Virus record (IMG/VR): IMGVR_UViG_3300020472_000021
Coordinates: 1 to 64,000 of that record
DNA: 64,000 nt
Source of the DNA: a virus
Strand: one strand, 5' to 3'
This document shows positions 6,103 to 24,500 of the stretch, piece after piece (the first letter of the stretch is position 1; each line of letters starts with the position of its first letter). The notes below the pieces were generated by a model. That model had not been told where the DNA came from. It did no database searches and saw only the letters and a program-made list of their open reading frames with translations. A program made the translations under genes and the position numbers.

Positions 6103-6645
6103 TCAAGGAATGAAGTTAAAGTTTATTACAAATCTTGGTTTCTGTGTAGGTTTGCTGCTTGCGTGAAAACGTAAACCATCAAAGAATACACATCTACCTT
6201 TCTCTGGTGATACGGTATTATTTATACCATATTCTCCCATCGGATCTCCGTACCTCTTTTCACTGAAATACGTGTCTCCGTCACTATCGGTTGCATAATA
6301 TAAGCATACCATATGATCCTCTGGTATGTCAACATGCATTTGATCATATTCATTTTCCCTAACTCCAGGAGTTTGAAGAAAACATCTTCCACGTATGACT
6401 TTAGAAATACTCACATTAGCATTATGACATGCTTCAAATACTAAAGGAAGAAGTAATCCACTATACTTACTACAAGATTTTCCATCAAGTAGAAACATAT
6501 GAGAGAATCCTACTAACTGACTATCACCATCTTCTACTAAGTTATCATGATACACCCATCTAAAATCAGTATCAAACCTTAGAGTTTCTTCTATAAGGTT
6601 TTGATAATTTGGATTGATGCAATCATCTTTAATAATGCTCTTCAT
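6103..6645 (-). CDS. 2OG-Fe(II) oxygenase-like protein (sixth of six)
   Basis: A 180-residue protein with the double-stranded beta-helix signature of 2-oxoglutarate and Fe(II)-dependent dioxygenases. H104-V-D106 (QMHVDIPEDH) and H161 (FHASSKP) fit the iron triad, and R171 follows ten residues later as the likely 2-oxoglutarate contact (KPRFVINFNF). Such enzymes hydroxylate proteins, lipids, nucleic acids or small molecules. It is the most downstream of six overlapping genes of the same superfamily; its start lies 17 bases inside the upstream gene. The substrate is unknown. Confidence 0.78.
   Translation of the reverse strand: MKSIIKDDCINPNYQNLIEETLRFDTDFRWVYHDNLVEDGDSQLVGFSHMFLLDGKSCSKYSGLLLPLVFEACHNANVSISKVIRGRCFLQTPGVRENEYDQMHVDIPEDHMVCLYYATDSDGDTYFSEKRYGDPMGEYGINNTVSPEKGRCVFFDGLRFHASSKPTQKPRFVINFNFIP
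6229..6236 (-). promoter_or_regulatory. T4-type late promoter element TATAAATA
   Basis: Perfect TATAAATA on the minus strand within the last oxygenase gene, 133 bases before the 69-residue coiled-coil gene. Confidence 0.45.
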
Positions 6646-7297
6646 CTGGACCCTCTACATTCCAAGCAATATTTCCAGACACAGTTGTTCTTTCTTTATC
6701 AGTAGACCTGAATGGATATACAGCATGATAAGTTGTTGATGGAAATAAAAGTATAGTACCGTTCCATGAATTATCTACTGGTAATACTTCCTTTTCTAAT
6801 TGAAATGTTCCATCACTATGGAAGGAATTTCTTTCTTCTGGTCCATATGGTATATCTACAAATATAACAAAACTAGCAATACCAGAATGGATATGCATTG
6901 GATTATATTCATTCTTTTTCTGATAGTTAACCCATAGATTATGTAACTTTAAAAATCTAGTTATATCTTTGCAACTATGGAACTCCCATGGACATGTAGT
7001 ATAAACATCATTCCAAATTGGTCTGACTAAAGATAATAGATAAGGTTCTAATGTCGGACATTGTAATTTCCATTCACCTAAACTTGATTGTTGGTTTAAA
7101 GCACCAGCTAATCTATCATTCATATTCCATACTTTATCTTTTCTTCTTATCCTTGTATACTCCAAGAGAGGATAGTATACATCTGGTGGTAATTTTGTTG
7201 CAACAAAATTTAAAGTTGATTGACTATGAACCTGAGCATCACCATAGTCTTTAACATGATGGTTAGGATTTTCTATATGTTTCTGTTGACTATTCAT
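6629..7297 (-). CDS. 2OG-Fe(II) oxygenase-like protein (fifth of six)
   Basis: 222 residues from the ATG at 7297, which overlaps the previous stop. The segment NPMHIHSGIASFVIFVDIP (H135 and H137) followed by ILLFPSTTYHAVYPF (H191) and R203 resembles the 2OG-FeII_Oxy_5 group, where the first metal motif reads HxH. Only one of the two first histidines needs to be a ligand. It has a long N-terminal helical part compared with its neighbours. The substrate is unknown. Confidence 0.78.
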   Translation of the reverse strand: MNSQQKHIENPNHHVKDYGDAQVHSQSTLNFVATKLPPDVYYPLLEYTRIRRKDKVWNMNDRLAGALNQQSSLGEWKLQCPTLEPYLLSLVRPIWNDVYTTCPWEFHSCKDITRFLKLHNLWVNYQKKNEYNPMHIHSGIASFVIFVDIPYGPEERNSFHSDGTFQLEKEVLPVDNSWNGTILLFPSTTYHAVYPFRSTDKERTTVSGNIAWNVEGPDEEHY

Positions 7298-7790
7298 AAT
7301 ACAAATCCGCACTTAAAGAATATCGTTTTTCATCTTCTGTTCCTTTACCTGCCATGTGTGGTAAGTTTGATGGAAATATAAACCATGTAAATAATTTCTT
7401 TGGTAAGTGATATGGATCATAATTTGGCATAGGAAACTCAGCAGTTCCAGATGATCCAGGTAGTCGTAAATACATTATACCAGATAGAGTGTATGGATTC
7501 TCTAAATTATGAGCGTGCATATATGGTTCTTTTGAATTTGATTTCCAATCAACATATATCCATGAACTTATTTTATAATCAAAAACATTCATATCCCAGT
7601 ATCTAGAACATGAATCGTAATAAGATAATCTCAGTTTTTCAATCACTGGATTTTGATAATCTAAAAAATTATCCTCAGTCTTTGCAACAATAGGATTATC
7701 TTGATACTCTATATTATCAATAAAATTTATAAGAGTATCTACCTCCTCATTATCTAGTTCACAAGAATATTCTCTAATACCTAATACCAT
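7290..7790 (-). CDS. 2OG-Fe(II) oxygenase-like protein (fourth of six)
   Basis: 166 residues. YMHAHNLENPYTLSGIMYLRLP (about residues 90-111, with H92 and H94) followed by WFIFPSNLPHMAGKG (H145) and R156 matches the 2OG-FeII_Oxy_5 pattern of a first HxH motif followed by SGxxYL. It overlaps both neighbours by 8-10 bases, so all copies are likely to be translated from one mRNA. The substrate is unknown. Confidence 0.78.
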   Translation of the reverse strand: MVLGIREYSCELDNEEVDTLINFIDNIEYQDNPIVAKTEDNFLDYQNPVIEKLRLSYYDSCSRYWDMNVFDYKISSWIYVDWKSNSKEPYMHAHNLENPYTLSGIMYLRLPGSSGTAEFPMPNYDPYHLPKKLFTWFIFPSNLPHMAGKGTEDEKRYSLSADLYYE

Positions 7791-8362
7791 GTTCTTGACT
7801 GACGACTATTGATGTGTGCATGAATTTCAGGAACACAAAATGAAAATGCTACTGTAGTTCTGTAACCATTACCAATTAAACTATTTGGTGAATGACCTTT
7901 GTGTTCCCAATTAGATGGAATGAATACACCATTGTTAGGAATATATGGTGTGTAATGAAGTTTGCCATCTGGACTCTTACATACAAACTCACCACCCCAC
8001 TCATGATTCCACTGCATTTGGTTAAACAATATAAATGTCCATACCTCATCCAATGGATAATCTTTATGGAACAATGAGTTCTGTCCAGGAGTCTGTCCAT
8101 TTGCATGAATCTTACACAACTGAATATCCTTTTTAAGAATCTTCATCATCTTAAGTCTTACTGTGGTAGCACATTTAACAAAGAACAAATCAGTTCTTAA
8201 AGGATGTTGCCAAGATACAGGATCCCCTTTACCATATGATGCATTGTTAAGTGTCCATATAGCTAGACTATTTACAGCAGGTTGAGTACGGTCAAAGTAT
8301 TGCCAAAGACCTTCAAACTCTTCTCTACTTAAGACAGCTTCAATGACTTTAGGTTCGTTCAT
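7781..8362 (-). CDS. 2OG-Fe(II) oxygenase-like protein (third of six)
   Basis: 193 residues from the ATG at 8362, which overlaps the previous stop as ATGA. The iron triad is likely H99-K-D101 (LFHKDYPLDE) and H154 or H157 (NWEHKGHSPN), with R168 as the 2-oxoglutarate contact. The WGGEFV segment between them is typical of prolyl-4-hydroxylase-type folds. The substrate is unknown. Confidence 0.78.
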   Translation of the reverse strand: MNEPKVIEAVLSREEFEGLWQYFDRTQPAVNSLAIWTLNNASYGKGDPVSWQHPLRTDLFFVKCATTVRLKMMKILKKDIQLCKIHANGQTPGQNSLFHKDYPLDEVWTFILFNQMQWNHEWGGEFVCKSPDGKLHYTPYIPNNGVFIPSNWEHKGHSPNSLIGNGYRTTVAFSFCVPEIHAHINSRQSRTWY

Positions 8363-8925
8363 TTGCCCCACCATAACCATCCTGTAATAATATATTTCTC
8401 ATGTTCCTCCGATATTTGTCCTCTGTGTTTATGAGTTAATCCAGCAGGAAATAAAACTGTATTACCTTTCTTTGCTTGCACAGTATAATTCTGATAATAG
8501 AATTCAGTTCCACCATTAGGAACATCATTCAAATATGTAATAAAAACAAAAGCTTTATCACAACCATCTAAACCAGATGCATCTACATGCCATGTATAAA
8601 AACCTTCACCAGGTTTATAATACTGTATCTGTGGTAACTGCTTCATTGTAAACTCTTGGTTTCCAACTTCTAGTAATTGTAAGTATTCATTTATAAAACC
8701 ATCTAATGATTTTGAATATTCATCATATTTAAAGTCACTTGGTTTTCCAAACTTTCCAGCATCAGTTATAGAGAAATCGGTACTCTTCTTAATATCTGGA
8801 ATGATACTTCCACCACCGACTCTACCAGCATATGTCATCTCACCTTTATCAGCTATGTGAAAAAGCTCTATGAGTTTATCACATACACTAGTATCTTCTA
8901 ATTGATATTCGTTAATAAAATTCAT
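8359..8925 (-). CDS. 2OG-Fe(II) oxygenase, prolyl-4-hydroxylase type (second of six)
   Basis: 188 residues from the ATG at 8925, overlapping the previous stop as ATGA. The pattern is clear: YKPGEGFYTWHVDAS with H113 and D115, then LNDVPNGGTEFY, then FPAGLTHKHRG with H165, and K177 where prolyl-4-hydroxylases place the lysine that binds 2-oxoglutarate. This is the best-defined oxygenase of the set, and it is full length for a phage P4H domain. Confidence 0.85.
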   Translation of the reverse strand: MNFINEYQLEDTSVCDKLIELFHIADKGEMTYAGRVGGGSIIPDIKKSTDFSITDAGKFGKPSDFKYDEYSKSLDGFINEYLQLLEVGNQEFTMKQLPQIQYYKPGEGFYTWHVDASGLDGCDKAFVFITYLNDVPNGGTEFYYQNYTVQAKKGNTVLFPAGLTHKHRGQISEEHEKYIITGWLWWGK

Positions 8926-9512
8926 TTGTATGGTGGACCTTGTACCCATCCTACTAAGGATTTTCTACACCCAGAAGTAACTTCTCTTACTCTATGCGGT
9001 GTATCACTCATGAATATTATAGCATCCTTTTTCTTTAATGGAATAATCTTTTTCTCATCTACTACCATTTCAAATTCACCACCTTCAAAATCATCATTCA
9101 ATAGTATAGTAAAACTAAGTTTACGTATTCTATTATTCTGTCTCTTACCTTGCATCCAATTAGATTCATCTATATGCCAATCATAGTAACCACCCTTTTC
9201 ATATACAGTATCTTGCATAGGTTCTATAAAATCAATATCATAATTCCATTCACATTTTCTATTAGCAAAATCAAGAAACCCATCTACTAATCCATACAAA
9301 CGTTCATCATCTATAAAACGAGATTTTGATTCTCTATTTACTTTATCGAGTTCTCCTTTATTTTCTAAACCTTCTACTTTAGAAGATTCATAATCATCTA
9401 TAGGTTTACTTTCACGATCTGTACCTTGACATTTTTTAAGTTGCCTTTCTATAAGATCAAAATATTCATCTTCCATATTGATGATTATATATTGGTGTTT
9501 AAATGAATTCAT
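8922..9512 (-). CDS. 2OG-Fe(II) oxygenase, PKHD-hydroxylase type (first of six)
   Basis: 196 residues from the ATG at 9512, overlapping the stop of the U32-methyltransferase gene as ATGA. YEKGGYYDWHIDES carries H113 and D115, LNDDFEGGEFEM is the typical central strand, FMSDTPHRVREV carries H173, and R183/K184 follow. Phage PKHD-type proteins are common in cyanophages, and their targets are not known. An acidic and basic insert at about residues 30-70 is longer than usual. Confidence 0.85.
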   Translation of the reverse strand: MNSFKHQYIIINMEDEYFDLIERQLKKCQGTDRESKPIDDYESSKVEGLENKGELDKVNRESKSRFIDDERLYGLVDGFLDFANRKCEWNYDIDFIEPMQDTVYEKGGYYDWHIDESNWMQGKRQNNRIRKLSFTILLNDDFEGGEFEMVVDEKKIIPLKKKDAIIFMSDTPHRVREVTSGCRKSLVGWVQGPPYK

Positions 9513-11263
9513 TTTTGACACACCATTATATGTACACCATTCCACCAACCATTAGGATCCTCTGGAACACCAGTTAATATCTTACGATCAAACATAACTT
9601 TAATATCATTTTCTTTAATCCATATATTTGCTGACTCTACCACACCCATAAAGTTAGCATCATCTATTACTATTATAAACTGATCATCCATAATTGTATA
9701 GAGATAAGTTAGATTATCATATTGCTGTTGTGGATCATGATCAGCATCATAGAAAATAATATTTGCTTTCTTATTCTCCATAGTATGTTCATCACGAATA
9801 ATATTAAAGTCTGCTTGAGTTAGATCTTGAATACTTTTCTCATGAAAAACTTGATTCTTTTTCATACCTTTAAAGAATGCACCTTTAGGATTATTCATCT
9901 TAAATCCTTTATGTCCATATACTTTACCACCACTATCCCAACTATCTTCTTCACGGAAGGGAGCAATATCTTCTTCTGAATAGTTATCAACAGCAAACGC
10001 TGGTATATCTCTATCCATTGTTGCAGCAAAGAATGTACTACCAGCAGCAACACCCAATTCTAAATACACAGCATCTTCTTTAGAACATAAGTTATTAAGA
10101 AAATGTCTAATAATATTTGATGATAAACCTTCGTAATTATATCCTTCTGGATTGAACTTACTATCTCCTCTTGCTGCCTTATCAATAGAATTAAGAACTA
10201 ATTCTATATCCTTGTCCATAGTTCTTTCATTCTTCTTCATCCTAGAATGAATAACTGAATCACAATAATTACAATCCCAACAATCAAACTTACATGTCTT
10301 AATCTTATCTCTCCAGATATCAATTGGTTTCTCTTGTAATGTAGTATCTTCAATATACTCATTGAACTGAGGAAATAATAATTCTTCATCACTATCCCAT
10401 CGCTTAATGATCTCCATTGATTCCATTAAACGCATAGCATTTTCTCTACCATGCATCTTGAATACATCTATACCAAGATCAATAAACTCTTGCCAATCTT
10501 CTTTCCATGGAGGTAATGCTGCTTGCTTTAAAGCATTAGCTGGATCTTTCTCATCCCAATTAGAACATGACACTCTACTAATAGAATCATTAAAATACTG
10601 AGGATCATCTTCTCCTCTTTCCATATTATAATGATAGTGTTCTGGCATGATCGGACATCCACCCCAACACCACTCATTAGCAAGGAGTGATATCTTGACT
10701 GGTTTACCTATCTCAGCACAATATTCTTTTGCTTTTTTAATTCTTAGTAATTGATCATGATCTCTCATTAGATCGCGATCTAAATTAATATAATTAAATC
10801 CTGCCTTTGCTAGATTAACTATCTCATTTGCTCTTGTTACTTCTCTGAGTATAGTATTTTTGATATAAAGTTCTGGAAACTCTTTCTGTATTTGTCCAGT
10901 CAACATCCATGTTGTATGAGGTAACGTAACAATACGAACACCCATATCATATACTGCTTTAAAATTCTCAATAAAAAGATTCAAATTCTTTTGATTAGGA
11001 AGAACCTGAATATTATTAAATGTTGCTGATAATGGAATACCTGTTTCTTGAGAAACATAGAGAGCATTGAATGTTGTCTCTCTCATATCCCCATCAATAG
11101 TATCCCCCATTGCGTCTTGAACGAATGGAGGCATCCGACATGTAAAGTATATGTCGTAAATATGTTTCTTATACTGATTAAGGAACGGTATAAAAGTTCC
11201 TGTTACAAAATCTTCAGGAAGCTTTGTATTCAGTGGGATCGAGAACCTTTGTACCATATTCAT
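9509..11263 (-). CDS. U32-like TIM-barrel Fe-S protein fused to a SAM methyltransferase
   Basis: 584 residues in two parts. Residues 1 to about 340 resemble the peptidase U32 family (TrhP, RlhA, UbiU/UbiV): a barrel-like series, LREVTRANEIVNLAKAG (139-155) like the family's RELS..EI motif, cysteines at 199, 203 and 233, and FKMHGRENAMR (268-278) like the family's KIEGR motif. A cysteine knot CKFDCWDCNYC (324-334) follows. Residues from about 395 form a class I methyltransferase: LELGVAAGS (401-409) as motif I and FYDADHD (504-510) as a downstream acidic motif. U32 members carry Fe-S clusters and perform hydroxylations of tRNA, rRNA or quinones. No peptidase catalysis is implied. It heads the six-oxygenase array, and its start overlaps the upstream gene. 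The substrate is unknown. Confidence 0.62.
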   Translation of the reverse strand: MNMVQRFSIPLNTKLPEDFVTGTFIPFLNQYKKHIYDIYFTCRMPPFVQDAMGDTIDGDMRETTFNALYVSQETGIPLSATFNNIQVLPNQKNLNLFIENFKAVYDMGVRIVTLPHTTWMLTGQIQKEFPELYIKNTILREVTRANEIVNLAKAGFNYINLDRDLMRDHDQLLRIKKAKEYCAEIGKPVKISLLANEWCWGGCPIMPEHYHYNMERGEDDPQYFNDSISRVSCSNWDEKDPANALKQAALPPWKEDWQEFIDLGIDVFKMHGRENAMRLMESMEIIKRWDSDEELLFPQFNEYIEDTTLQEKPIDIWRDKIKTCKFDCWDCNYCDSVIHSRMKKNERTMDKDIELVLNSIDKAARGDSKFNPEGYNYEGLSSNIIRHFLNNLCSKEDAVYLELGVAAGSTFFAATMDRDIPAFAVDNYSEEDIAPFREEDSWDSGGKVYGHKGFKMNNPKGAFFKGMKKNQVFHEKSIQDLTQADFNIIRDEHTMENKKANIIFYDADHDPQQQYDNLTYLYTIMDDQFIIVIDDANFMGVVESANIWIKENDIKVMFDRKILTGVPEDPNGWWNGVHIMVCQK

Positions 11264-11465
11264 CTAGAACTTTATTAATAAATAAACCTTCGTTGTCACT
11301 ATGTTCTATCAAGAGATTCTTATTCTCCTTACAGATTTCTCTGAGTCTTACTCTATCTAAATCCTTGTCTTTATTTTCAAGATTATACTTTTCGTACATC
11401 ATGAAATGTATGACAGGTAGAAGCTCATCATACCTCTCTGCATCAGCGTGCCAAACACCTGCCAT
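11214..11465 (-). CDS. Hypothetical protein (83 residues)
   Basis: A charged, helical protein starting MAGVWHADAERYDELLP; the N-terminus is aromatic and acidic, the remainder rich in Lys, Glu and Asp. It ends about 50 bases inside the U32-methyltransferase gene. A CATAAATA late-promoter-like element lies 38 bases upstream of its start. It could be the first gene of a late unit that includes the oxygenase array. The family is not recognised. Confidence 0.65.
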   Translation of the reverse strand: MAGVWHADAERYDELLPVIHFMMYEKYNLENKDKDLDRVRLREICKENKNLLIEHSDNEGLFINKVLDEYGTKVLDPTEYKAS

Positions 11466-12344
11466 CTATTTCTCCCCCTCTTTAAATTGTAGCTGTCCTG
11501 TATATTTATGCGCCTCGAACTTAGGCATTGTTATACCTTCCGATTCTATCTGTTGTTGTATAGCAGGAGCGAATGTTTTATTTAACTTATCCATACCACC
11601 ACCAACGAGAGCAGAGAATTGTATTGCTACTTCTAAACATTTAACTTGATCCTGTTCTGGCATATCCAAAATAGAAGTCATGTTACCAGTAGATATTCTA
11701 CCATAGGATACAATATCCATAGCAGCCTGTTTGCCCATACGAGCAATCCAGTATACTCTTTCTTCATCTTCTTGTTCTTCCAAGAAATACTCTAATGGAT
11801 GTTCATCATCAACATTCTCATTAACAGTTTTCAAGAAATGTGTCATTTCAATTTCTGATTGACGTAGTTTCCTTTTCCAGATACCTATGTCATAATCATT
11901 CTTTTCTAAATCAATCTGGATAAATCCAGCATCAATTTCATCTCCACCATCTGCCTCTAAATTTTCAAGAGTACGAATGAATTTCTTTCTAAGTAATTCT
12001 GCTTTTCTAAGACTATGCCTATTTTCCATATAAGCATGATACCTTGTTTCTAGTTCCATCAATGCTTGACGAACCTTTCTCCATGGAGTCAGTTGCATAT
12101 CAATAACAAAATGCTTGCTTTGATATTCAGTCATACCGCTATTGAAGCGCATACTCCCTTCTAAGATATCAAAATCTTTCTTTGAGAAATTAAATTCCTC
12201 AACGAAAGACTTAGCTAGATTTATCTCTCCAGTATCAGAACTGACAATGTTATTAACATCAGCAATAATATCAGACAACTCTGCGTTGTAAGATAATCTT
12301 GAATTTTTTGGATCAGTGTTAACTAATTCAGAACTTAAAGACAT
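11466..12344 (-). CDS. Hypothetical protein (292 residues), paired with the next gene upstream
   Basis: A soluble, mostly helical, charged protein with no transmembrane segment. The central part (about residues 95-125) is a long basic helix. Near the C-terminus it has ITMPKFEA, which resembles IMMPQFQA in the protein encoded just upstream, so the two may be distant relatives. It overlaps the upstream gene by 17 bases and abuts the next gene directly. It could be a virion or assembly protein, since it lies beside fibre genes. No family is recognised. Confidence 0.7.
   Translation of the reverse strand: MSLSSELVNTDPKNSRLSYNAELSDIIADVNNIVSSDTGEINLAKSFVEEFNFSKKDFDILEGSMRFNSGMTEYQSKHFVIDMQLTPWRKVRQALMELETRYHAYMENRHSLRKAELLRKKFIRTLENLEADGGDEIDAGFIQIDLEKNDYDIGIWKRKLRQSEIEMTHFLKTVNENVDDEHPLEYFLEEQEDEERVYWIARMGKQAAMDIVSYGRISTGNMTSILDMPEQDQVKCLEVAIQFSALVGGGMDKLNKTFAPAIQQQIESEGITMPKFEAHKYTGQLQFKEGEK
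11503..11510 (-). promoter_or_regulatory. T4-type late promoter element CATAAATA
   Basis: CATAAATA on the minus strand, 38 bases before the ATG at 11465 and inside the C-terminal codons of the 292-residue gene. It could launch the 83-residue protein, the U32-methyltransferase and the oxygenase array. Confidence 0.5.
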
Positions 12345-13143
12345 ATGCGTCTACCTCATACTCTGGTTTTCGATCCCAGTCAGTATCAGATTTAGTGCGA
12401 CCCATTTCAATTGCCTGAAATTGAGGCATCATAATACCGATGTGATCTTCATATAATGTATTTAGGTCCCATACAGAGTCGGCATCTTCAAACTTTTTCT
12501 TAAGTTTTTGATACGTAACAAGCATAGTAGACAGTTTATCTTCATAAGATTCTGCCTTAGTTAAAATTTTATTGGATAAATCTGTTTTGTCCAGACTTCT
12601 TTCTGTAGCAAGATAGTCAAGGAATGGAGTCTTACTTCCATTCTTACCTTTTTCTCTCAACCATTCTCTTGCTTCATGCTTCTGTATTTCCCAAGAAGCA
12701 GTTTCTAATTCTGTTGTGTCTGTTAGATTTTTAATTCTTACATTAAATTCATCATCAATAATCTCTACAGCAAAGATAGTCATGAAATCAGTAATTTCTT
12801 TTTTGATTTCATCTGTCAATTCTACTGGTACTTTAAGAACACCACCAGCAGGAGTCCATGCTTGAGCAACACCTTGATGGTTAACAGTTGCCATAACCTT
12901 ACCAAAAGGTCTGACTTCTGAGAAGAAGTTAGATCCATTAAGTGCTTGCTTTTTAGTAACTTCTTTATACTTATGTTCCCACTCTTTAGAGATAACTTGG
13001 AAGATGTTTTCACTTACTTCTACACATGCAAAATGCATCAACGAAAATATTTCGTTGTAATGAAGTCTTGAATCAGCTGTCTCAGCAATATTGACATACT
13101 GCTCAGGCTTGATTTCTTTTTCGTTGACGATTAAGTATCTCAT
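12328..13143 (-). CDS. Hypothetical protein (271 residues), paired with the gene downstream
   Basis: A soluble alpha and beta protein with a beta-rich first half and a helical second half. It carries IMMPQFQAIEMG near its C-terminus, like the ITMPKFEA of the 292-residue neighbour. It starts four bases after the stop of the 428-residue structural protein, so it is probably made late with the fibre. No family is recognised. Confidence 0.7.
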   Translation of the reverse strand: MRYLIVNEKEIKPEQYVNIAETADSRLHYNEIFSLMHFACVEVSENIFQVISKEWEHKYKEVTKKQALNGSNFFSEVRPFGKVMATVNHQGVAQAWTPAGGVLKVPVELTDEIKKEITDFMTIFAVEIIDDEFNVRIKNLTDTTELETASWEIQKHEAREWLREKGKNGSKTPFLDYLATERSLDKTDLSNKILTKAESYEDKLSTMLVTYQKLKKKFEDADSVWDLNTLYEDHIGIMMPQFQAIEMGRTKSDTDWDRKPEYEVDAYVFKF

Positions 13144-13146
13144 TGT

Positions 13147-14433
13147 TTATTGTGCGTATCTAGCTGTAACAGATGCTGCTGCTGAACAGCAACCACCTGA
13201 TGATTGTCCATAATGTCCTTTAGGTCTTGTAGAAGCACCCATATTAGTCTCAACGTCAGTTGAATAATCCCACTTAGTAGTGTGGTTGTTCTGCTGACCA
13301 TCATATTGTCCCATCATATAACCCCAGTCCTGACCCATCATCATGTTCTCTTCTCCATAAGAACGAACCTTAGATCCATTCTTAATACCAGATCCTGAAG
13401 AACCATTGTACTTAGTCCAAGGAGTTGTAACGTTGTTACCAGTTCCGCAATAGAAGTGACCCCATTTAGAAGGAAGTGGTTTACAAACTCCGTCAGGAGC
13501 AGCAGATGAAGACCAACCACCCCAACTATCGTTAGAATGATTACAGTAATATCTGTTACCTGAGAATGAAGCCCATGTTTTATCTTCATCAGCACATGAA
13601 GCAGTATGGTCATTACCAGAAGGTGAGTTACCTGCCTGATACATGATTTCTGAAGGGAAGTGTAACTTACCTACAGCAGAGTTACCTCCACCCAAGTTGT
13701 ATCCATGCTGTTGTTTTTGTGCAGATGCACATGAGTTTCTGTCTCTGTTAACAGGCATGTTCCAACCACCAACAGTACCATAACCCATGATTCCTCTTGG
13801 GTCATCTCCTTCCCAACCGTAGTTGTGAGGTGAATATGTACCACCACCAGGGTTACTACCTGATGTACCAAACATTCGTCTCATTCCAGTATGGAGGTTG
13901 ATCGAAGATGTGTGGTTTGATGATCCAGTAAATGAGTTAACACATCCATGACCATACCCAAAGTAATCACTCCAAGTAACATCAGCATATGTTAATGCAC
14001 GGTCAAGTTGTTCACCACAATAGAAAGTAACGTCTGTAGCGTGCCAAGTTTTGTTTACTGTTCTCCAAGGATTAGATCCTTTGTATCCAGCAATCAGATA
14101 ACCATGTGTTATCAAACTTCTATATCTAAACCCAGTCAAGGGTGAAGAAACAGCATTGTTCTGGCCAGGATATGCCCAGAAAGTTCCGTTCTCTCCATCA
14201 GATACTAAGTAAGCACCTCTAGTTTCTTCAGTTGTGCCTGGTACACCACCTCCTACATCATCCCATTCAGAACCACTCCAAATTTGTGCTTTCGCATCTG
14301 TGGAGTTCCAAATCATCTGACCTATATTAGGAGATGCAGGTCTACTGCCAGCAGCAAATGATGGCAACTTCAAACCTTGTGTGGCTAAAGATGCATTACC
14401 TGTGACAACAGTTCCAACTGTTAACTGAGACAT
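13147..14433 (-). CDS. Putative fibre or surface virion protein rich in Gly, Ser, Asn, Trp and Tyr
   Basis: 428 residues. The N-terminus LTVGTVVTGNASLATQGLKLP and the segment RPASPNIGQMIWNSTDAKAQIWSG are typical of short cyanophage fibre proteins that attach through an N-terminal beta domain (the pattern of the 'GxMxYNTxTxxxExWxG' repeat). The rest is rich in aromatic residues and glycine with about ten cysteines, which suggests a stable globular tip, possibly with disulphides. A CATAAATA late-promoter-like element lies 23-30 bases upstream. A receptor-binding role is likely, but it is inferred from composition and location. Confidence 0.65.
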   Translation of the reverse strand: MSQLTVGTVVTGNASLATQGLKLPSFAAGSRPASPNIGQMIWNSTDAKAQIWSGSEWDDVGGGVPGTTEETRGAYLVSDGENGTFWAYPGQNNAVSSPLTGFRYRSLITHGYLIAGYKGSNPWRTVNKTWHATDVTFYCGEQLDRALTYADVTWSDYFGYGHGCVNSFTGSSNHTSSINLHTGMRRMFGTSGSNPGGGTYSPHNYGWEGDDPRGIMGYGTVGGWNMPVNRDRNSCASAQKQQHGYNLGGGNSAVGKLHFPSEIMYQAGNSPSGNDHTASCADEDKTWASFSGNRYYCNHSNDSWGGWSSSAAPDGVCKPLPSKWGHFYCGTGNNVTTPWTKYNGSSGSGIKNGSKVRSYGEENMMMGQDWGYMMGQYDGQQNNHTTKWDYSTDVETNMGASTRPKGHYGQSSGGCCSAAASVTARYAQ

Positions 14434-14820: not shown

Positions 14821-15576
14821 TTAACTGTAATTGTATACAATAACGCAACCGCCACCGCCGTTGCTATTATCATGAGCAAAACTATTCTGTGAATAGTATC
14901 CATGACCACCACCAGAACCCCACTGACCATGAGTAATTTCCTCTTGGTTGTTATAATAATGGTGTGAAGAACCAGCTTTGTGCCAGAAACTAGAACCAGC
15001 AACTCCTTCATTGTTTGAACCGTGAGTCATTTCACCACCACCGCCAGGTAAGTTTATATCACCACCTGAAGCATTTCCACCAGGTCCGCCCTGATGAGGT
15101 ACATCTGATTGACCACCTTGTCCACCACCAGCAGTACAGTAAGATCCAAAGGAAGATGTACCTCCCGAACCACCTCTACCACCGTTACGAGCATAACCTC
15201 CTCCACCACCATATGTGTAGCTGACAGAGTTTACACTAGAAACATCAATCCATTTGATAGCAGTAGCTCCACCGCCACCTCCAGCACCACGATAAGTGTT
15301 ATCATTGACTCTGGCCCCGCCACCACCACCAGTTACATAAACTAAGACGTGACTACATCCAGAGGGTTTTGTCCAAGTACCAGAACCACCACTGGTGGAT
15401 TTAGAGTTCCAAGTACCATTCTGTGAAGTATAAACATTCATACCCAACAACGATCCAGTAGATGCCATTGCAGTATAACCGCTTCCATTCCACAGTCTCA
15501 AATCATCATTTTGCAGATCCATTATATTAACTCCTGCGGAGTTTTGGATCTGGTCTACTTTTAATATTCCAGCCAT
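14821..15576 (-). CDS. Glycine-rich tail fibre tip / adhesin-like protein
   Basis: 251 residues. The N-terminus MAGILKVDQIQNSAGVNIM is a common cyanophage fibre attachment sequence. From about residue 66 the protein has GTWTKPSGCSHVLVYVTGGGGGA, the start of a glycine-rich domain, followed by at least six poly-glycine blocks separated by variable loops. Glycine islands with variable loops are the design of the gp38 adhesins of T4-like phages that determine host range. A perfect TATAAATA late element lies at 15612-15619, 36 bases upstream. Confidence 0.75.
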   Translation of the reverse strand: MAGILKVDQIQNSAGVNIMDLQNDDLRLWNGSGYTAMASTGSLLGMNVYTSQNGTWNSKSTSGGSGTWTKPSGCSHVLVYVTGGGGGARVNDNTYRGAGGGGGATAIKWIDVSSVNSVSYTYGGGGGYARNGGRGGSGGTSSFGSYCTAGGGQGGQSDVPHQGGPGGNASGGDINLPGGGGEMTHGSNNEGVAGSSFWHKAGSSHHYYNNQEEITHGQWGSGGGHGYYSQNSFAHDNSNGGGGCVIVYNYS

Positions 15577-15585
15577 ATTTCCTCG

Positions 15586-18500
15586 TTATACGATAGCCCA
15601 GTTACCACCACTATTTATAGTGACCGTGTAACCGTTTGCAATTGTGATCGGACCTGCACTGACACAGTTTGTGTTAGCAGGTATTGTTACGTTTTCAGAA
15701 ACTGTGTTTCTGTTAGACTTAAAGATTCCATAAGTATCAATCCACATCGTATCACCATTGATATAACCAATGCCTTCAAAGTTAGAAGTACCACCAACAT
15801 GTAAATCATATGATGGGTTTGCTTTGTTTATACCAACCTTAGATATTCTATGGATATCATTTCCGTTAGAAGATTCTGTCCAACGTGACGTAACGAATTC
15901 AGCATTGTTCTGGAAGAACTGACCGTTAAGGTTCATATCACCTTGTACGGTTAACTGATAAGTTCTTGCAGTGTTGTTGTTTGGATCAGTACCAGAGTTT
16001 GTAGTAGTGTTAATAGAAACTCTATTATTACTACCATCAACAGCAATTGCTGGTGTAGTATTCCAAGTTGTTCCACCGTTATCAGTAGATGCTTGAATTG
16101 CAAAGAAATGGTTACCTACTGTCTGGTTACTAACTCTGAAGTTTCTATAAGAAGAAGAACCACGTAGGTTTATTCTTGCACCAGAGTTATCATCATCCTG
16201 ATCAATGTTAAGTGTACCAGTAATCATTGCAGTACCAGCAACTTCTAATGCGAAGTCTGGTTCACGGTTGATACCAACACCTAAGTATCTAGATGCAATA
16301 ACATCACCAACAACACGTAAATACAGATCTGATTCTGTACCTTCCATGGTGAATCCTTCACCATACTCACCAGCTGGTGATGCTGAATCTGCATGGTTGT
16401 ATCTAAGAGTACCAATTTGAGAGTAACCACCAGTATGGTCGGAGAATCTAATTCTTGCACCTGTAGCAATAGCATTGGTTGCTGATTTAAGGAATATACC
16501 TTCATCACTACGAAGATCAAGAGCAGCAGAAGGAGAAGTACCTACGTTAATACCAACTCTATTAGCACTTGCATCAACAAATAGAACTCCAGCATCAACA
16601 TTCAAATCATTACTTAGAGTTGTAACTCCAGTAACACCAACTGTACCACCGATACTTAAGTTAGAAGATCCACCAGCAAGTGTTAGTGAACCAGTCATGG
16701 TATCACCAGTCTTCAATACGTTAAGTGATGCAGCACCTGATAATGAACCAGTAATAGTACCAGCAGAGAAGTTACCTGAACCATCTCTCTTAACAGCAGT
16801 ATTGGCAATGTTATTAACTTGGAAAGTAATATTACCTGCGTTCCATACAGTAGCACCATTAACTTCTAAACCATCAGCATTAGCAACTTTAACTTCTAAT
16901 GTACCAGAACCATCAGTTGTAGTACCACCAGCAGCAATCAAAGCAACGTTGTAGTTTGATGCAGCAGATGCAGAAGAGTTGAAGTAAACAGCAGGACTAG
17001 ATGCTTGACCATCCTTTCTACCAAGTCTTAGTTTTGCAGTACCAGAATCACTCTCAAGTCTAGTTACCTCGAAGGTGTTATCATCTTCAATAGTAAAGTC
17101 TTGGAATGGAACTCTGTTACTTGCAGTACCAATTGTCAGAGCACCAGTAAAGTTACCAGAAGTTAATCTACCAATTAGAATACTGTAATCATTGAAGTTA
17201 TCATTAACATCATCGTTAATAGTAATAGCATCAATTGTGTAACTACCAACTGCCTGTGCGTTAGCATTGTATAGGTTAACTGGGTTACCTGGTGTGAATG
17301 GTGAACTGTTAAGGATTAAACCTTGTACATAAATCTGATACTTAGCATCACCATTAAATGTCTTGACTACTAATCTATCTTGATAAGATCTAGGACTAAT
17401 GAATCCTGGTAGTCTGTTATCAGACATAATACCAGAGTTCAAGTTGTAAGCATTCTGATACCAATCACCTTGTCTATTATCTAATCTGTCAGCATCAAGA
17501 TCTGAATCTACACCATCGTTAAGTGATGTCCAAACCTTACCCCATGAACCGAATGTAGAAACACCTGTACCAGAACCTCTCATCCACATGTTGTCATTAT
17601 CTGTGAATGCAAGTTGTCTAATACCACCGTAAGTAGCATCGAAACCAGAACCACCATTTCTGATAGTCATAACTAGGTTTCTAGTACCACCATCTGAAAG
17701 ACTGTTAGCACTGTTGAATACTGTGTTAGCGATAACACCTTCAACGAAGTTGTTTGGAGCAGGGTTTGATGTGGGGTTGTTAGTACCTGTGATCAAACGA
17801 ATTGTATTCTGAGATGAACCAGAAATACTAATGTTATATGTACCAGATAATCTATCAGTAGGTAATGTACCAGAGTTCTGGTTACCAGAGTTTAGATAGA
17901 ACGCACCTTGAGCACCGTCAAGAAGGTCAGCATCTAATCCACTGTCAGCACCAGTTTTAAGTACAACAGAACCATTACCTGCTAAACCAATATCAAATTG
18001 TGATTTCTTATATCTCGAAACACCAATAGTACCGTAGAGGTCAGCAGAAATTGTTTGATCTGTAACTCTCTGAACGTCAATAGCAACGTTAGCATACTGT
18101 CTATTAACAGTACTTACCTTAGCCTCTAATACAAGACCAGATCCAGTACCTATTGCTGTTGGAGCAACTGTAATTGAGAAGTCAGCACTATATCCTGAAC
18201 CACCGTTAGTTACAGTTACATCAGTTACTGCGTTACCAGATACAACAAAGTTTGCCTTTAGATCAACACCTGATCCACCTGTTAGAGGAATATCGTAGTA
18301 TTGACCATTAGTGTATCCAGAACCACCATTAGAAATGATGACATCATCAACAAAGTTACCTTGAGTATATGTTGACTCGAAGGTCACTGGGGAAGCACCC
18401 CTTTCAAATTCAATAATCGTACCAGAAGCAATAGTCTGGTTGATTGGATTGTTGATTGCAACTGTAGTTAATCCACCAGCAGTTACAATACCTGTAATAT

Positions 18501-21500
18501 TTGTGTTTGCCTGTATTCCATTAACAGTATTCTTAACCTCGTGACCAATCAGAGCATTCTGGTTTGTTTGGAATATCAGTGAGTTAGTTCCACTAGTTGC
18601 CTGTGAATATAATTGAGCAAAGTATCTATTTTCTGCACCTTTCAATGATTGCATTGCAAGTGCATAGTTCTGGTCACCTCTTAAGAATGTGAAGGAGTTA
18701 GCAGCACCACCTGATGCCAATCTGTCTGTTTCAATAACACCAGATGTAATATCAGCAGCAGCAATTTGGTTAGTAGATAGTGATACCCAGTTAGCAGCAA
18801 GAGAACAAGATGTGTTAACAACACGGTTAATATTAACTGTATTAGCAGTTGGTGTTGTACTATCGTCGAATGTATCGGTATCTTCAATCTTAAGCTTGTT
18901 AACAATAGTACCATATACTCTACTTTCAATTAAGCAGTTACCTTGTGCTTGTGTTCCAGCTCCTGGAGGAGCAGCGAATGTGATTGTTGGAGCAGTAGTA
19001 TATCCTTTACCACCAACATATCCATTAAAGTCAATAATGGTAGCAGTAACAACTTCACCGTTAGCAATAGTACATGTAACAGAAGCAGCAACCGCACCAC
19101 CACCAGGATTACCTCCTGAAACTGTGACAGCAGGAGCAATTGTATATCCAGAACCAGAGTTAGTAACGTTTACTGTATAAACAACACCAGTTCTATATTC
19201 AGTAGACTGAATACGACCACCAGATACACTACCTTCAAATATATCTCCAATAGTAAATGCTAGGTTGGAATCAAATGCAAATCCTAAGAACAGACTTGTT
19301 AGGTCATTGTTCAAGATGAAGGACTGTGAAGTATCCTGCTGAATCGCAATGTCACCAGCAAGTGCTCCCTCTAGTGCCAATCTTTCTGGTTCGTCAGCAA
19401 CAGTGTAAACACTGAATGGTCTCAAAGCAGGAATCTGGTCAACAGATATCTTACCTGAGTCTGTTAGTTCAACCAATGCTCTTGGAACAGCGTTCGTAGA
19501 GTATGGCTTGTTAATGAATGGACCTAAGTTATTTGTAATGTAATCTTTAACTGCCTTCTGAGTAGGTAGTTTAGAGTCAGATGCGTTTGCACCACCCAAT
19601 GTGTTGGAGTCATCGAATCCAGTAACAACAACGTCACCACCTTTCAGTTTCAAGAATTCAACTTCAGAGATCGTAACCGTACCAGTGAAGGTAATGTTAC
19701 CAGTTCTGTTCTCAATTCTAGCGAATGTACCAACCTTGAAGTCTCCTAGTTCGTCAGTACCAGAAACATATACACGACCATAATTCTGTGATACCTGTTC
19801 GTTTGCTTCGATCTTAGTACCACCGTTCTCAGGTAGAGCAAGGTAGTTAGTACCAGATCCAGCAAATTCCCATGTATGAGATGATGAGTTAACAATAGAT
19901 GGTCTGTGTAGGTTGATAGTCTTACCAAGTAATACACTTGTTGAAACTGCGTTACCAGTAGATACATCAGTCAGATCCATTCCACCACCAGTACCATCAT
20001 CAATGGTTAACTGAGCAGAGAAAGGAGGACCAACGGTAACTGCTGAAACTACATCAACAAAGTATTCAATTTCAGTATTAGTATTGGTATAACCATTAAT
20101 CTTAACAACGTAGTGCTCTAGTGGTTCTCTTCCTAATCCACTAACTGTAAGAATTGTTCTACCAGTAGGTGTAGAAGATACGTTAGAGATAGTTGCAATA
20201 TCAAATACGTATGGAGTAGCACTAAATCCAACACCTCTTAATGCATACTGACCGAAGTTAGTAGCAGAGTTAGTAATAGATGCATAACCACCAGACTCAC
20301 AAAGAACACCATCTGCACAGAAGATAACGAATACAGAAACCAACTGAACATAACCATCATTGATAATCTTGTATCCAGTACCACCAAAGGAAACGATAGT
20401 GAATGCAGATGCAACCATCGACTTACCCTGATTAGGATAAGTTGCACTACCATCTAACTCTAGTCCAGTAAACGGACAGTTAGGTTGCTTAACCTTAGCA
20501 CCATCAATAAATGCACCATTACCACCTAAGAAGGAGATAACAGAAGAGTTCTGAGTATATGGAGATGCCTCAATGATTGGATATTCATCATAGTCAGAAC
20601 GAACAGCAGATCTAACATTGTTAGAATCATAGATGTAACTATCTGGATATGATGTTAATAATGCAGTATCATATAAAGTACCTGTTGTTTGTGTAGTTGC
20701 ACCAGGAAGGATTGTTCCATCTAAGATGTCTTCTAACAGATCCATTTCTGTAGCAATAGAAGAAGCAATGTTAGCACACTTAGGAGTACCACCTGTGTAT
20801 AGAGTAATGTTCCAATCTTCGTACTTAGGAATTGGAGAAGTAGTTACAACCTGATCGTAAACGATAACAATACCATTTGCTAATCCACTTACGAATGCGT
20901 GTGTAGAAGCACTAGCAGATCCAGCAGCACCTACGTTACATGTAACAGTGGTATTACCACCAGCAGATGATACGTTAGTAATTTCAAGTGATTTACCATA
21001 TGCTTTCTTATCAGCAGCAACTCTTCTTGGATAAGAGTGCTCAGTAGCATTACTATCTACATCACAAGTAAACTTAAGTGCGTTCTCTCTAAATGCAATT
21101 CTATGTGATGTCTTAACTGCCTTAGAAGGATCTGGGAATGTTACTGTTAAATTACCAGTAGATGCTGTGTAAGTAGCAGCATTTGCTGTTCCAACATGAG
21201 GAACATTTGAAGCAGCACCAACGTTAACAGTAATAGTTGTTGCGGTTACTGCACTAATAGCAAGAGTTGCTCCAGATGCAGGGTCAGTTGCTCTTGGATA
21301 AGCATGGTTTGTAGAGTTAGCATCTAAGTCACAAGTAAATGTAACAGCACCATTTGCGATCTGTACAGTGTTACTTGTTGTTAAACTATGAGATCCAATC
21401 TCCAATACCATATCACCAGATGTAGCATTGTAAGTTGTTCCAGCAGCTGCTGTGACAGCACTACCAGCATTAGGAGTAATTCCTCCAGCAGTTCCACTTA

Positions 21501-24500
21501 CGAATGTATGAGTTCCAGCATATCCAGTCCAGTTAGAAAGTGCGTTGATTGCGTACTCTTTGACCTTCTGATAAGCGTAAAGGGTTTGAGCAAGCATTGA
21601 TGGTTGAATACCAGTTAACGCTGTTCCTGTGAAGTATAACTCTGCTCTAGAAACGATACCAGAGTTACCACCAAGTACAAGGTCACGAACCAATCCACCA
21701 AGAATCAATCCAACGTCTCTACGACACTTTCTTTGATTAAGATCGGATAGATTTGCATTAGGATATTTCTTCTCTACATCTAACAATACCTGATCAGCAA
21801 TGAGATCTTTGTTACGTGCAATTAAGTATGCACCATCAAGGTATACGTTAGCAGCATTATTTGATAGAACATCTACGAAGAGATATGAAAGAGTATCAAT
21901 AGCAGCTCTTACATCATCACAACGTGGGCTACCAGCAGTAGTGTTGATAATTGTTGTATCTCTATACTGGGTTAAAGCAGTATGCTCTGCGACATATAGA
22001 GGATCTGTAGTCAATCTACTATCACCAGTATGCCAGTTACACATAGCATAGATTGCTAATTCTCTAGCATATTCTATACCACGTACAGTTTGAATAATTT
22101 CATTCTCTACATATTCTACTTTTGCTCCAACAATATATTTCTTAGCAGCTTCTATAACGTTATGGTTAGAACCATACTCTAAGTCTCTTATAACAGCATT
22201 CAAGAAATGTCTAATGTCCTGCTTACACTGTTCATCACCATTAGGTTGATTGTTATTACCAGAAGTAGGAGGACTGAATGATGGATATGTCTTTTGTCCA
22301 GAAGAACAAGACATTAAAATACTATCAAGTTTTATAGTAGCATCTTCTGCAATATTTGGAACAGCAGCAGTTACAGTAACTGTAGCAATACCAGTTATAG
22401 CATTATCATATACAAAGTCTGAAATATTATAAGAACTACCACCAAAATCTACAGTACCACCACTAACATAAGTGTGTACTTCGGGTGTTTGTCCTAAGTA
22501 TACTTTAAATGTTGTACCACCAGTAGATAGACAATTTGAAGCAGCTCTTACAAATGTATGAACAGTTTGAGGTCTGTTCTTAACACAATTTGTGTCAGCA
22601 GTAACAAATGTATGAGCAGTACTTGGTCTAAATTTAATTCCGTTAGTTGATCCACTTATAAATGTGTGAGCATAAGATCCACCACTAACAAGACCACCAG
22701 ATGTAGCACTAACAAATGTGTGTGAATAGTTACCACCTGAAACTACGAATCCCTGATTAGCAGATACGTATACGTGTGCGGATGTATCAGAAGATGTACC
22801 AACATTAACTGTTATAGTAGTTGCTGTTGTTGCAGTGATAGAAACAGATGTATTGTATGCTGGATCGTCAGCAGTTGCACCACCTTGACCATTTGCACGA
22901 GGATAAGAGTGCTGTGTAGCATTACTATCTAATCCACATGTAAATGTAATACCTTCATTTGTAAGGCTAACACCTTGTCCAGTGTTTAAATTATGAGTAC
23001 CAATGGTCATCTCAAGAAGACCAGTAGCAGGATCGTAAGTAGCGTTAGTTGGTGTGTACTCTACAGATGGAGAAGCACCTACATTAATTGTTATATCACC
23101 AGATTGATGAGTTAATCCACCAGTAATAGCAGAAACAAATGAGTGTGTAGATGTATCACTTGAAGTACCAACATTAATTTCAAATGTATCTGTAGCAACT
23201 TGTGATACTGCTAACCAATCACCACCACCGCCAGGATCTGAAGTTCTTGGATAAGAGTGCTGAGTAGCATTATTATCTAAACCACATGTGAATGTTAAAG
23301 AGTTATTTCCTAATCTAACTCTATCACCATTAGAGAATCCATGACCAGCAATAGTTAATTGCATTACACCTGTTGAAGGATTGTAAGCAGCACCTGTTAC
23401 AGTGTGGGCAGTATTACCAACAGCAATAACTTCTAAAGAAGAATCATATGCTCTATCTCTCTTTTGTTTGATTCCATCAGTAGTAGCAGAAACAAATGCG
23501 TGAGTAGTCTGGTTTGTAGAAGGAACTGTGTCAAGAACTTGAATTGTATATGTGTTAAGAGTTACATTCTGTACAGGAATCCAATGACCGCTGATTGGGT
23601 CAGTTGCTCTTGGGTATGTGTGGTTTGATCCGTTATTATCTTCTAAACAAGTGAATGTTAATGAGTTATCATCAAGTTTAATAAGATCCCCATTTGACAT
23701 TCCATGATTAGGAGTTGTTAATGTTAATAGACCAGTTGAAGGATTGTATGCAGCGTTAGTTGCTGTATGAGTATCAATGTTTGTTCTTGGATAACTCTTA
23801 TTAGCAGTATTACCATCCATTGCACAACTGAATGTTAGAGCACCATCAGCAAGTTTGATGTTATCTCCAACTTGTAAATTGTGAGCACCAAGAGTAAGAA
23901 CCATATTACCAGTAGATGCTGTGTAAGAAGCATTAGTTGGTGTGTATGTTACCTGTGGTGATGTACCAACGTTAACAGTTAAAGTACCGTCTTGTCTCTT
24001 TAATCCGTTAGATACAGCAGAAACAAATGTATGAGTTGAAGTATCCTGAGATATACCAACGTTAATATCAAAAGTATTTGTCGTTATATTACCAATCTGT
24101 AACCATCTTCCACTTGCTTTATCATATCCAGCACGAGGATAGTCATGATTAGAACCATTACTGTCTAATGCACAAGTAAGTCTTAATGAATCATCATCAA
24201 GTTTAATATAATCTCCATTACTAAATCCGTGACCAGAAACAGTTAATTGTAAAACACCTGTCGCAGGAGTATATGTTGCATCAGTTACTGTGTGTTGTGT
24301 CTCTCCAACTGCTGTAACTCCAATTGCTTGGCCAGAAGTAGGGTCAATATCTAGTCTAGGATAACTATGCTTAGTCGCATGACCATCCATAGCACAAGTA
24401 AATGTCAATGCATCATTGTCTATCATGATGCTATCGCCTGTGCGAATTCCATGCTGCCCAACTGTCAATACCATGACACCTGTAGCAGGATCATATGTAG

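Follow-up and report, generated by a model that had tools for sequence, protein, structure and literature searches.

A phage protein joining a U32-like barrel to a class I methyltransferase is a candidate enzyme for hydroxylation followed by O-methylation

A gene on the minus strand of the virus record IMGVR_UViG_3300020472_000021 (IMG/VR), at positions 9509 to 11263 of the analyzed window (64,000 of the record's 67,144 bases), encodes a 584-amino-acid (aa) protein in which an N-terminal barrel related to the U32 family is fused to a C-terminal class I methyltransferase. The best account of this fusion, to which we assign a probability of about 0.58, is a predicted two-step tailoring enzyme that would hydroxylate its target and then O-methylate it. 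The U32-like barrel would carry one iron-sulfur (Fe-S) cluster on C199, C203, and C233 near E197, and a second cluster would probably be bound by C324, C328, C331, and C334. In the first step, which would need no O2, the barrel would add a hydroxyl group to a carbon that is aromatic or otherwise unsaturated, with prephenate or a similar organic compound as the oxygen donor, and in the second the C-terminal domain, presumably metal dependent, would methylate the new hydroxyl with S-adenosylmethionine (SAM). The target is less sure; it may be a product of the tail module, such as an aromatic residue of a tail-fiber-associated protein, or a small aromatic compound ending there. We infer hydroxylation followed by O-methylation from the analogy with TrhP/TrmR and UbiU/UbiV, and an idea of this kind, put forward in a preliminary description of the gene made from the DNA letters alone, gains support from the comparisons below.

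The fusion gene is real and conserved. In cultured phages, and in records of the Kyanoviridae, it is annotated as "T4-LIKE GC 354, hypothetical protein," and two protein families with no assigned function match it: phrog_1458 (residues 52-584, E 7e-229) and phrog_36869 (residues 6-346, E 6e-76). The fusion was found at a coverage of at least 80% in 123 of 50,697 phage records, and its relatives are encoded in 453 IMG/VR stretches. Since all of the fusion-bearing phage records are named Synechococcus, Prochlorococcus, or cyanophage, the source virus is taken to be a marine T4-like phage of the cyanophage type.

The N-terminal domain (residues 1 to ~346, positions 10226 to 11263, minus strand) is U32-like, a distant relative of the U32 superfamily that is connected to it through intermediates and falls outside PF01136 (Peptidase_U32) by that family's own cutoff. 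Because the cysteine regions were poorly predicted in a first full-length model, at a predicted local distance difference test (pLDDT) score below 50, this domain was remodeled alone. AlphaFold on residues 1-349 with 60 sequences returned the TIM barrel that the preliminary description had anticipated, a (beta-alpha)8 unit with eight strands in barrel order (pLDDT 89.1; predicted template modeling score 0.89). The best solved fold is the U32 protein Mk0906 (5d88; Z 15.5, root-mean-square deviation 3.4, 221 aligned residues) and the next is MTHFR (Z 12.8); when Foldseek matches are ranked by E-value alone, several MTHFR chains stand above 5d88. The best named match among viral models was a "Peptidase" of the coliphage OLB35 of Escherichia (E 1.9e-10). 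By the preliminary description, the reading would have been refuted by the lack of a barrel, a match to an unrelated family, or scattered cysteines; within the reach of the present checks none of these was seen, the model being a barrel whose nearest solved fold is U32 and whose cysteines are invariant. A glycosyltransferase or a radical SAM identity for this domain was rejected on the Pfam scan and the ranking of solved folds.

In sequence, the connection to U32 runs through two sets of intermediates, variant U32 and Straboviridae U32, which themselves pass the PF01136 cutoff. With tblastn at a relaxed E-value, the cysteine region matched a solo open reading frame (ORF) in a fecal contig and, in phages of Klebsiella, Proteus, and Yersinia, proteins annotated as "peptidase"; two of the phage proteins reached in this way were scanned, and both scored above the PF01136 cutoff (8.5e-12 and 5.1e-11). 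A profile of the N-terminal domain found a PF01136 protein in a Desulfocapsa metagenome-assembled genome (MAG) at 8.8e-11. By hhalign, the N-terminal alignment matched variant U32 with an E-value of 6.5e-10 (Prob 96.6) and Straboviridae U32 with 1.3e-8 (Prob 94.7), and reversed controls gave 0.53-0.7 against variant, Straboviridae, and TrhP-like U32 (0.53 for each of the first two) and 0.013 against two close solo relatives. Searches of solved-structure sequences with the single protein or with the N-terminal profile returned nothing useful. The U32 assignment of the preliminary description thus stands as profile homology through intermediates and as a fold, and not as a Pfam U32 match of the fusion; we write "U32-like" rather than PF01136 member because the fusion itself does not reach the PF01136 cutoff.

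The residues that would bind the clusters are conserved. We observed 59 invariant columns across 60 aligned N-terminal sequences, including E197, K269xxG272R273, and all seven of the cysteines C199, C203, C233, C324, C328, C331, and C334, which lie, like the ORF itself, where they had been placed beforehand; C182 and C42 vary. The motif E197-x-C199-x3-C203 (positions 10655 to 10675; this and the following motifs are on the minus strand) comes after barrel strand 7 and is a candidate Fe-S or active-site motif. C233 is encoded at 10565 to 10567, and K269-x-x-G272-R273 (10445 to 10459) matches the KIEGR/KLEGR/KIAGR of Pfam-U32 proteins. The fourth motif, C324-x3-C328-x2-C331-x2-C334 (10262 to 10294), is the candidate site of a second cluster, at the end of the U32-like unit. 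It had been described as an extra knot between the two domains, a view that has to be given up, since relatives without a methyltransferase retain CxxxCxxCxxC; judged from these sequences, the knot forms the C terminus of the U32-like unit and is part of the subfamily. Both ExC-x3-C and the terminal CxxxCxxCxxC are kept in solo relatives from phage and bacteria, which rules out an inter-domain linker, and a 299-aa fecal ORF has no terminal CxxxCxxCxxC. The set of three plus four cysteines would suit a pair of clusters, of which one has an open iron and the other is fully ligated. In TrhP, E162 and the cysteine pair C170 and C177 are reported as essential (PMC6599085); the invariant E197, C199, and C203 may be their counterparts, but they are spaced differently and hhalign does not bring them into register.

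The C-terminal half (residues ~372-584, positions 9512 to 10150, minus strand) bears out the SAM methyltransferase named in the preliminary description. PF13578 (Methyltransf_24) matches the fusion with an E-value of 0.0076 and 17.6 bits, or 20.3 for the domain alone, which does not reach the gathering score of 26.3, and all 34 scanned relatives of the C-terminal domain match the same family at E <= 0.01 (best 3.5e-12). By fold, residues ~361-584 align to many class I methyltransferases with Z 14-16. When a profile of the domain was compared with 177,635 distinct solved sequences, TrmR/YrrM came first (E 0.0019) and MW1564 second (0.14). Among the columns invariant in 34 C-terminal sequences are D506 (9746-9748) and the likely metal-ligand stretch D534-D535-A-N537 (9653 to 9664); D506, D534, D535, and N537 presumably fit the metal site of COMT-like/TrmR O-methyltransferases. 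In a motif at the C terminus, W573-W574-N575-G576 (9536 to 9547), the last three residues are invariant and the first position is W, F, or Y. These features, all on the minus strand, make the C-terminal half look suited to hydroxyl methylation, with a putative role as a metal-dependent O-methyltransferase.

The two domains recur together outside the fused form. The gathered loci comprise 178 labeled fused, 39 labeled split, and 18 labeled "solo" (128, 25, and 13 distinct proteins). Four of the 13 "solo" proteins end at contig ends (L114, L117, L123, and L215) and three are Pfam-U32 comparison proteins (L085, L086, and L131), leaving six distinct true solos (L084, L125, L126, L132, L133, and L134). 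One phage clade, supported at 99/99 in a tree whose long branches leave the deep position of the U32 outgroups unsure, has the domains in separate genes; in 39 of 39 loci the methyltransferase ORF comes after a U32-like ORF of 341-359 aa, with an overlap of 1-47 nucleotides (nt). A radical SAM gene stands directly upstream of the U32-like gene in all 25 distinct split loci (for example, L164:5036-6037). Within one order of the Chloroflexota, 7 of 156 genomes have the U32-like subfamily, at eight loci (L256-L258 and L268-L272), and in three of the eight a same-strand PF00891-type O-methyltransferase adjoins the U32-like gene with gaps of 9, -14, and 26 nt (called by Pfam in two loci and by BLAST to those in the third). 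The phage C-terminal family and the Chloroflexota PF00891 methyltransferase belong to different, unrelated Pfam families, and because of this difference the pairing of U32-like proteins with O-methyltransferases appears to have had more than one origin.

The solo and Chloroflexota loci have further features of their own. In L126 (839-1999), the solo ORF of the Desulfocapsa MAG, the stretch around the third cysteine is unusual, with the customary SC-x-W missing, and the sequence may be imperfect; by eye, the ORF is flanked by the end of an RTX-type repeat protein on one side and by an ABC transporter of type I secretion on the other. A gene of the reductive dehalogenase type (RdhA-like) is present in six of the eight Chloroflexota loci (L256, L257, L258, L268, L269, and L271), identified by PF13486 in one and in the rest by BLAST or identity to three seeds, of which L257 gave only Fe-S domains. 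The solo relatives L259:2071-5843, L260:3264-7091, and L272:3549-8183 adjoin xanthine-dehydrogenase-like ORFs, as judged by eye only, and L259 and L260 carry a VNEGC-x3-C motif.

U32 enzymes hydroxylate without O2, and we know of no established mechanism for this reaction. UbiU/UbiV and RlhA are U32-type proteins like the N-terminal domain of the fusion but differ from it in carrying the CX6CX15CX3C motif and share no direct sequence similarity with it; both are described as systems of O2-independent hydroxylation with an organic oxygen donor (PMC11574389). In Bacillus subtilis, the trhP1-trhP2-trmR operon gives 5-hydroxyuridine (ho5U) and then 5-methoxyuridine (mo5U), TrmR/YrrM methylating the ho5U hydroxyl (PMC6599085). 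Like the fusion, this system pairs a U32 protein (TrhP, or YrrN/YrrO) with a TrmR-type methyltransferase, and its chemistry is hydroxylation and then O-methylation. Its components, however, are separate proteins from one operon, with a canonical cysteine motif and a tRNA substrate, whereas the fusion is a single chain with another cysteine pattern in a tail operon. The Chloroflexota genes resemble the fusion in ExC-x3-C and the terminal CxxxCxxCxxC (L256-L258) and in the O-methyltransferase beside three of them, and differ in being separate genes on bacterial contigs with an unrelated methyltransferase family.

Among phages, the U32 "peptidase" of the Straboviridae, phrog_5757, has relatives in 218 phage records and shares with the fusion a U32 barrel and KxxGR (RB69 ORF050c, Klebsiella phage F48 gp095, Proteus phage Pm5461 gp038, and Thanatos-2 TH2_068). 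An NEFC motif and a C-terminal cysteine cluster in these proteins also resemble the N-terminal domain. Unlike the fusion, they are solo proteins without a methyltransferase, belong to a DNA-modification module of the RB69 type, and pass the PF01136 cutoff (two scanned). The phrog_5757 protein may use prephenate to produce 5-hydroxycytosine. The Straboviridae U32 genes may already be treated in a preprint that reportedly concerns glycosylated 5-hydroxycytosine in viral DNA (Lee et al., 2025). In the RB69 record the U32 gene lies within the stretch between polymerase and uvsX, and the text that describes the RB69 module there does not name it (PMC6024577). Among the papers available, our literature searches found none linking peptidase U32 with cyanophage and nothing relevant on a phage U32 hydroxylase with prephenate or on phage U32 with 5-hydroxycytosine. 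Prephenate as the donor would fit, with hints that come from relatives and none from the fused family. Chorismate mutase directly follows the Straboviridae U32 gene in F48 and, by BLAST, in Thanatos-2, and is close by in Pm5461, while RB69 ORF049c, in the equivalent position, has no similarity to these mutases. In one Chloroflexota locus, the first gene on the same strand after the U32-like gene encodes DAHP synthase.

In the window, the fusion gene stands within a series of ORFs, all on the minus strand, that overlap or nearly abut and lead from a tail-fiber gene to six 2-oxoglutarate (2OG)-Fe(II) oxygenase-type genes. Upstream of the fusion lie a 3968-aa tail fiber protein (phrog_5342; 15586 to 27492) and a tail fiber assembly/tail fiber protein (phrog_863; 14821 to 15576), followed by three proteins with no assigned function, phrog_1417 (13147 to 14433), phrog_1604/GC352 (12328 to 13143), and the near-constant neighbor phrog_1409/GC353 (11466 to 12344), and by an 83-aa ORF with no Pfam family (11214 to 11465) that overlaps the start of the fusion by 50 nt. 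Directly downstream of the fusion, six overlapping oxygenase-type ORFs fill 6103 to 9548 (6103-6645, 6629-7312, 7290-7790, 7781-8380, 8359-8949, and 8922-9548), three of them above and three below the Pfam cutoff. The sequence TATAAATA (4 sites) and CTAAATA (8 sites), which we take to be late-promoter-like motifs, are fewer than in shuffled sequence and were not used as evidence.

Neighbors were counted only at loci with at least 4 kb on each side (54 of the 128 fused and 13 of the 25 split distinct proteins), in clusters defined as single-linkage BLAST groups of which only some members were scanned for family. GC353 was present at 54/54 fused and 13/13 split loci, a phrog_1417-type gene at 52/54 and 13/13, and GC352 at 38/54 and 13/13. 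Selected 2OG-oxygenase clusters were near 42 fused loci and flavin halogenases near 20, with neither near any split locus, and a radical SAM gene was near every split locus and no fused one. Tryptophan-halogenase-like flavin genes lie at L113:4503-6017 and, as two copies, in L235 (7667-9193 and 10188-11369). A review regards the role proposed for the tryptophan halogenase of cyanophages as speculative (PMC2984593). Sullivan et al. (2010) place cyanophage 2OG oxygenases under nitrogen metabolism, and the term "354" does not occur in the main text of that paper (PMC3037559).

Several observations weigh against reading the fusion as a tail-directed hydroxylating and methylating enzyme. The Pfam scan of the 584-aa protein gave no PF01136 match even at E <= 1, the hhalign match to canonical TrhP-like U32 was weak (E 3.5e-4, Prob 16) with the cysteines out of register, and the published four-cysteine motif of U32 oxidases, CX6CX15CX3C (PMC11574389), is not in the fusion, which has CX3C and then a cysteine after 29 residues. 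The E-value for TrmR/YrrM (0.0019) is modest, and the TrmR fold match (Z 15.2) is tied with many other class I/O-methyltransferases. No similarity to chorismate mutase or DAHP synthase was detected in the fused or split neighborhoods, and the solo relatives show a U32-like unit that would be able to work without a fused methyltransferase. As to the target, the fusion gene lies among metabolic genes in S-ShM2 and L089, conserved neighbors can be carried along and do not prove a shared substrate, and the tail-like role of phrog_1417, phrog_1409, and phrog_1604 is read from position only. The two domains might not act in series, the U32-like part being a structural or regulatory Fe-S unit or catalyzing another reaction while the methyltransferase acts elsewhere. 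The divergent cysteine pattern, the absence of a canonical U32 match, and the solo copies in phage and bacteria would agree with this, but so many invariant columns over 60 sequences and the coupling to two different O-methyltransferase families argue the other way, and we regard it as unlikely. A radical SAM enzyme was already disfavored and has very little probability. The spacing C324-x3-C328-x2-C331 fits CX3CX2C, which we take to be the radical SAM motif, and the split pair does have a genuine radical SAM gene upstream; in the fusion, however, that spacing comes only after the last barrel strand and not early in the barrel, PF04055 has no match although the same library detects it in the split-pair neighbor, and the nearest solved fold is U32.

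For the substrate of a hydroxylating and methylating fusion, a target made with the tail module is favored over RNA because the gene sits in a tail-fiber operon with 2OG oxygenases and its relatives sit with halogenases or radical SAM; this setting gives no pointer toward tRNA or rRNA. More specifically, the fusion and the 2OG oxygenases, flavin halogenases, or radical SAM enzymes could form a tailoring island that decorates tail-fiber-associated proteins and so tunes adsorption, with aromatic or other side chains of the phrog_1417, phrog_1409, and phrog_1604 proteins or of the giant fiber as candidate substrates, a proposal that we consider possible though doubtful. Unlikely is a methoxy-pyrimidine of the mo5U kind in tRNA or rRNA of host or phage, of the sort that TrhP and TrmR make in B. 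subtilis. It would account for TrmR being the top solved-sequence match of the methyltransferase profile, the known U32-TrmR pair does work on tRNA (PMC6599085), and 16 of the 27 split loci scanned (of 39) have a tRNA-Arg(CCG) gene after the pair. Yet the anticodon CCG has no U34, no tRNA was found in the window or in the 53 fused or solo loci scanned, the gene belongs to a tail operon, and by hhalign the N-terminal domain is nearer to variant and Straboviridae U32 than to TrhP-like U32. A further prospect, by analogy with the Straboviridae U32 gene and its place in the module for modified cytosine, is that a pyrimidine nucleotide would be hydroxylated and methylated to give a methoxy-base in phage DNA: among named viral proteins, the nearest in fold is a U32 protein of the Straboviridae, and the Straboviridae gene lies near deoxycytidine monophosphate (dCMP)-hydroxymethylase-like genes in RB69 and Thanatos-2. 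The relationship to Straboviridae U32 is only distant, however, the tail operon again speaks for another target, and we noticed neither a thymidylate synthase nor a nucleotide kinase among the neighbor clusters, though no systematic search for them was made; we consider a DNA precursor quite improbable.

The preliminary description had judged such an enzyme new for a phage. Only the fusion is unusual, since U32 proteins alone are already common in phages, as the records of phrog_5757 show. A U32-like family that is fused to, or lies beside, different O-methyltransferases offers a direct handle on product and substrate, and an unnamed gene found in 123 phage records acquires a testable role. 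If the tailoring island reading is true, the fusion would be a U32-family enzyme that works on protein, to our knowledge the first of its kind, and would have its methyltransferase in the same chain. The findings also suggest that in marine T4-like phages many oxygenases and halogenases that still lack an explanation may serve protein tailoring rather than host metabolism.

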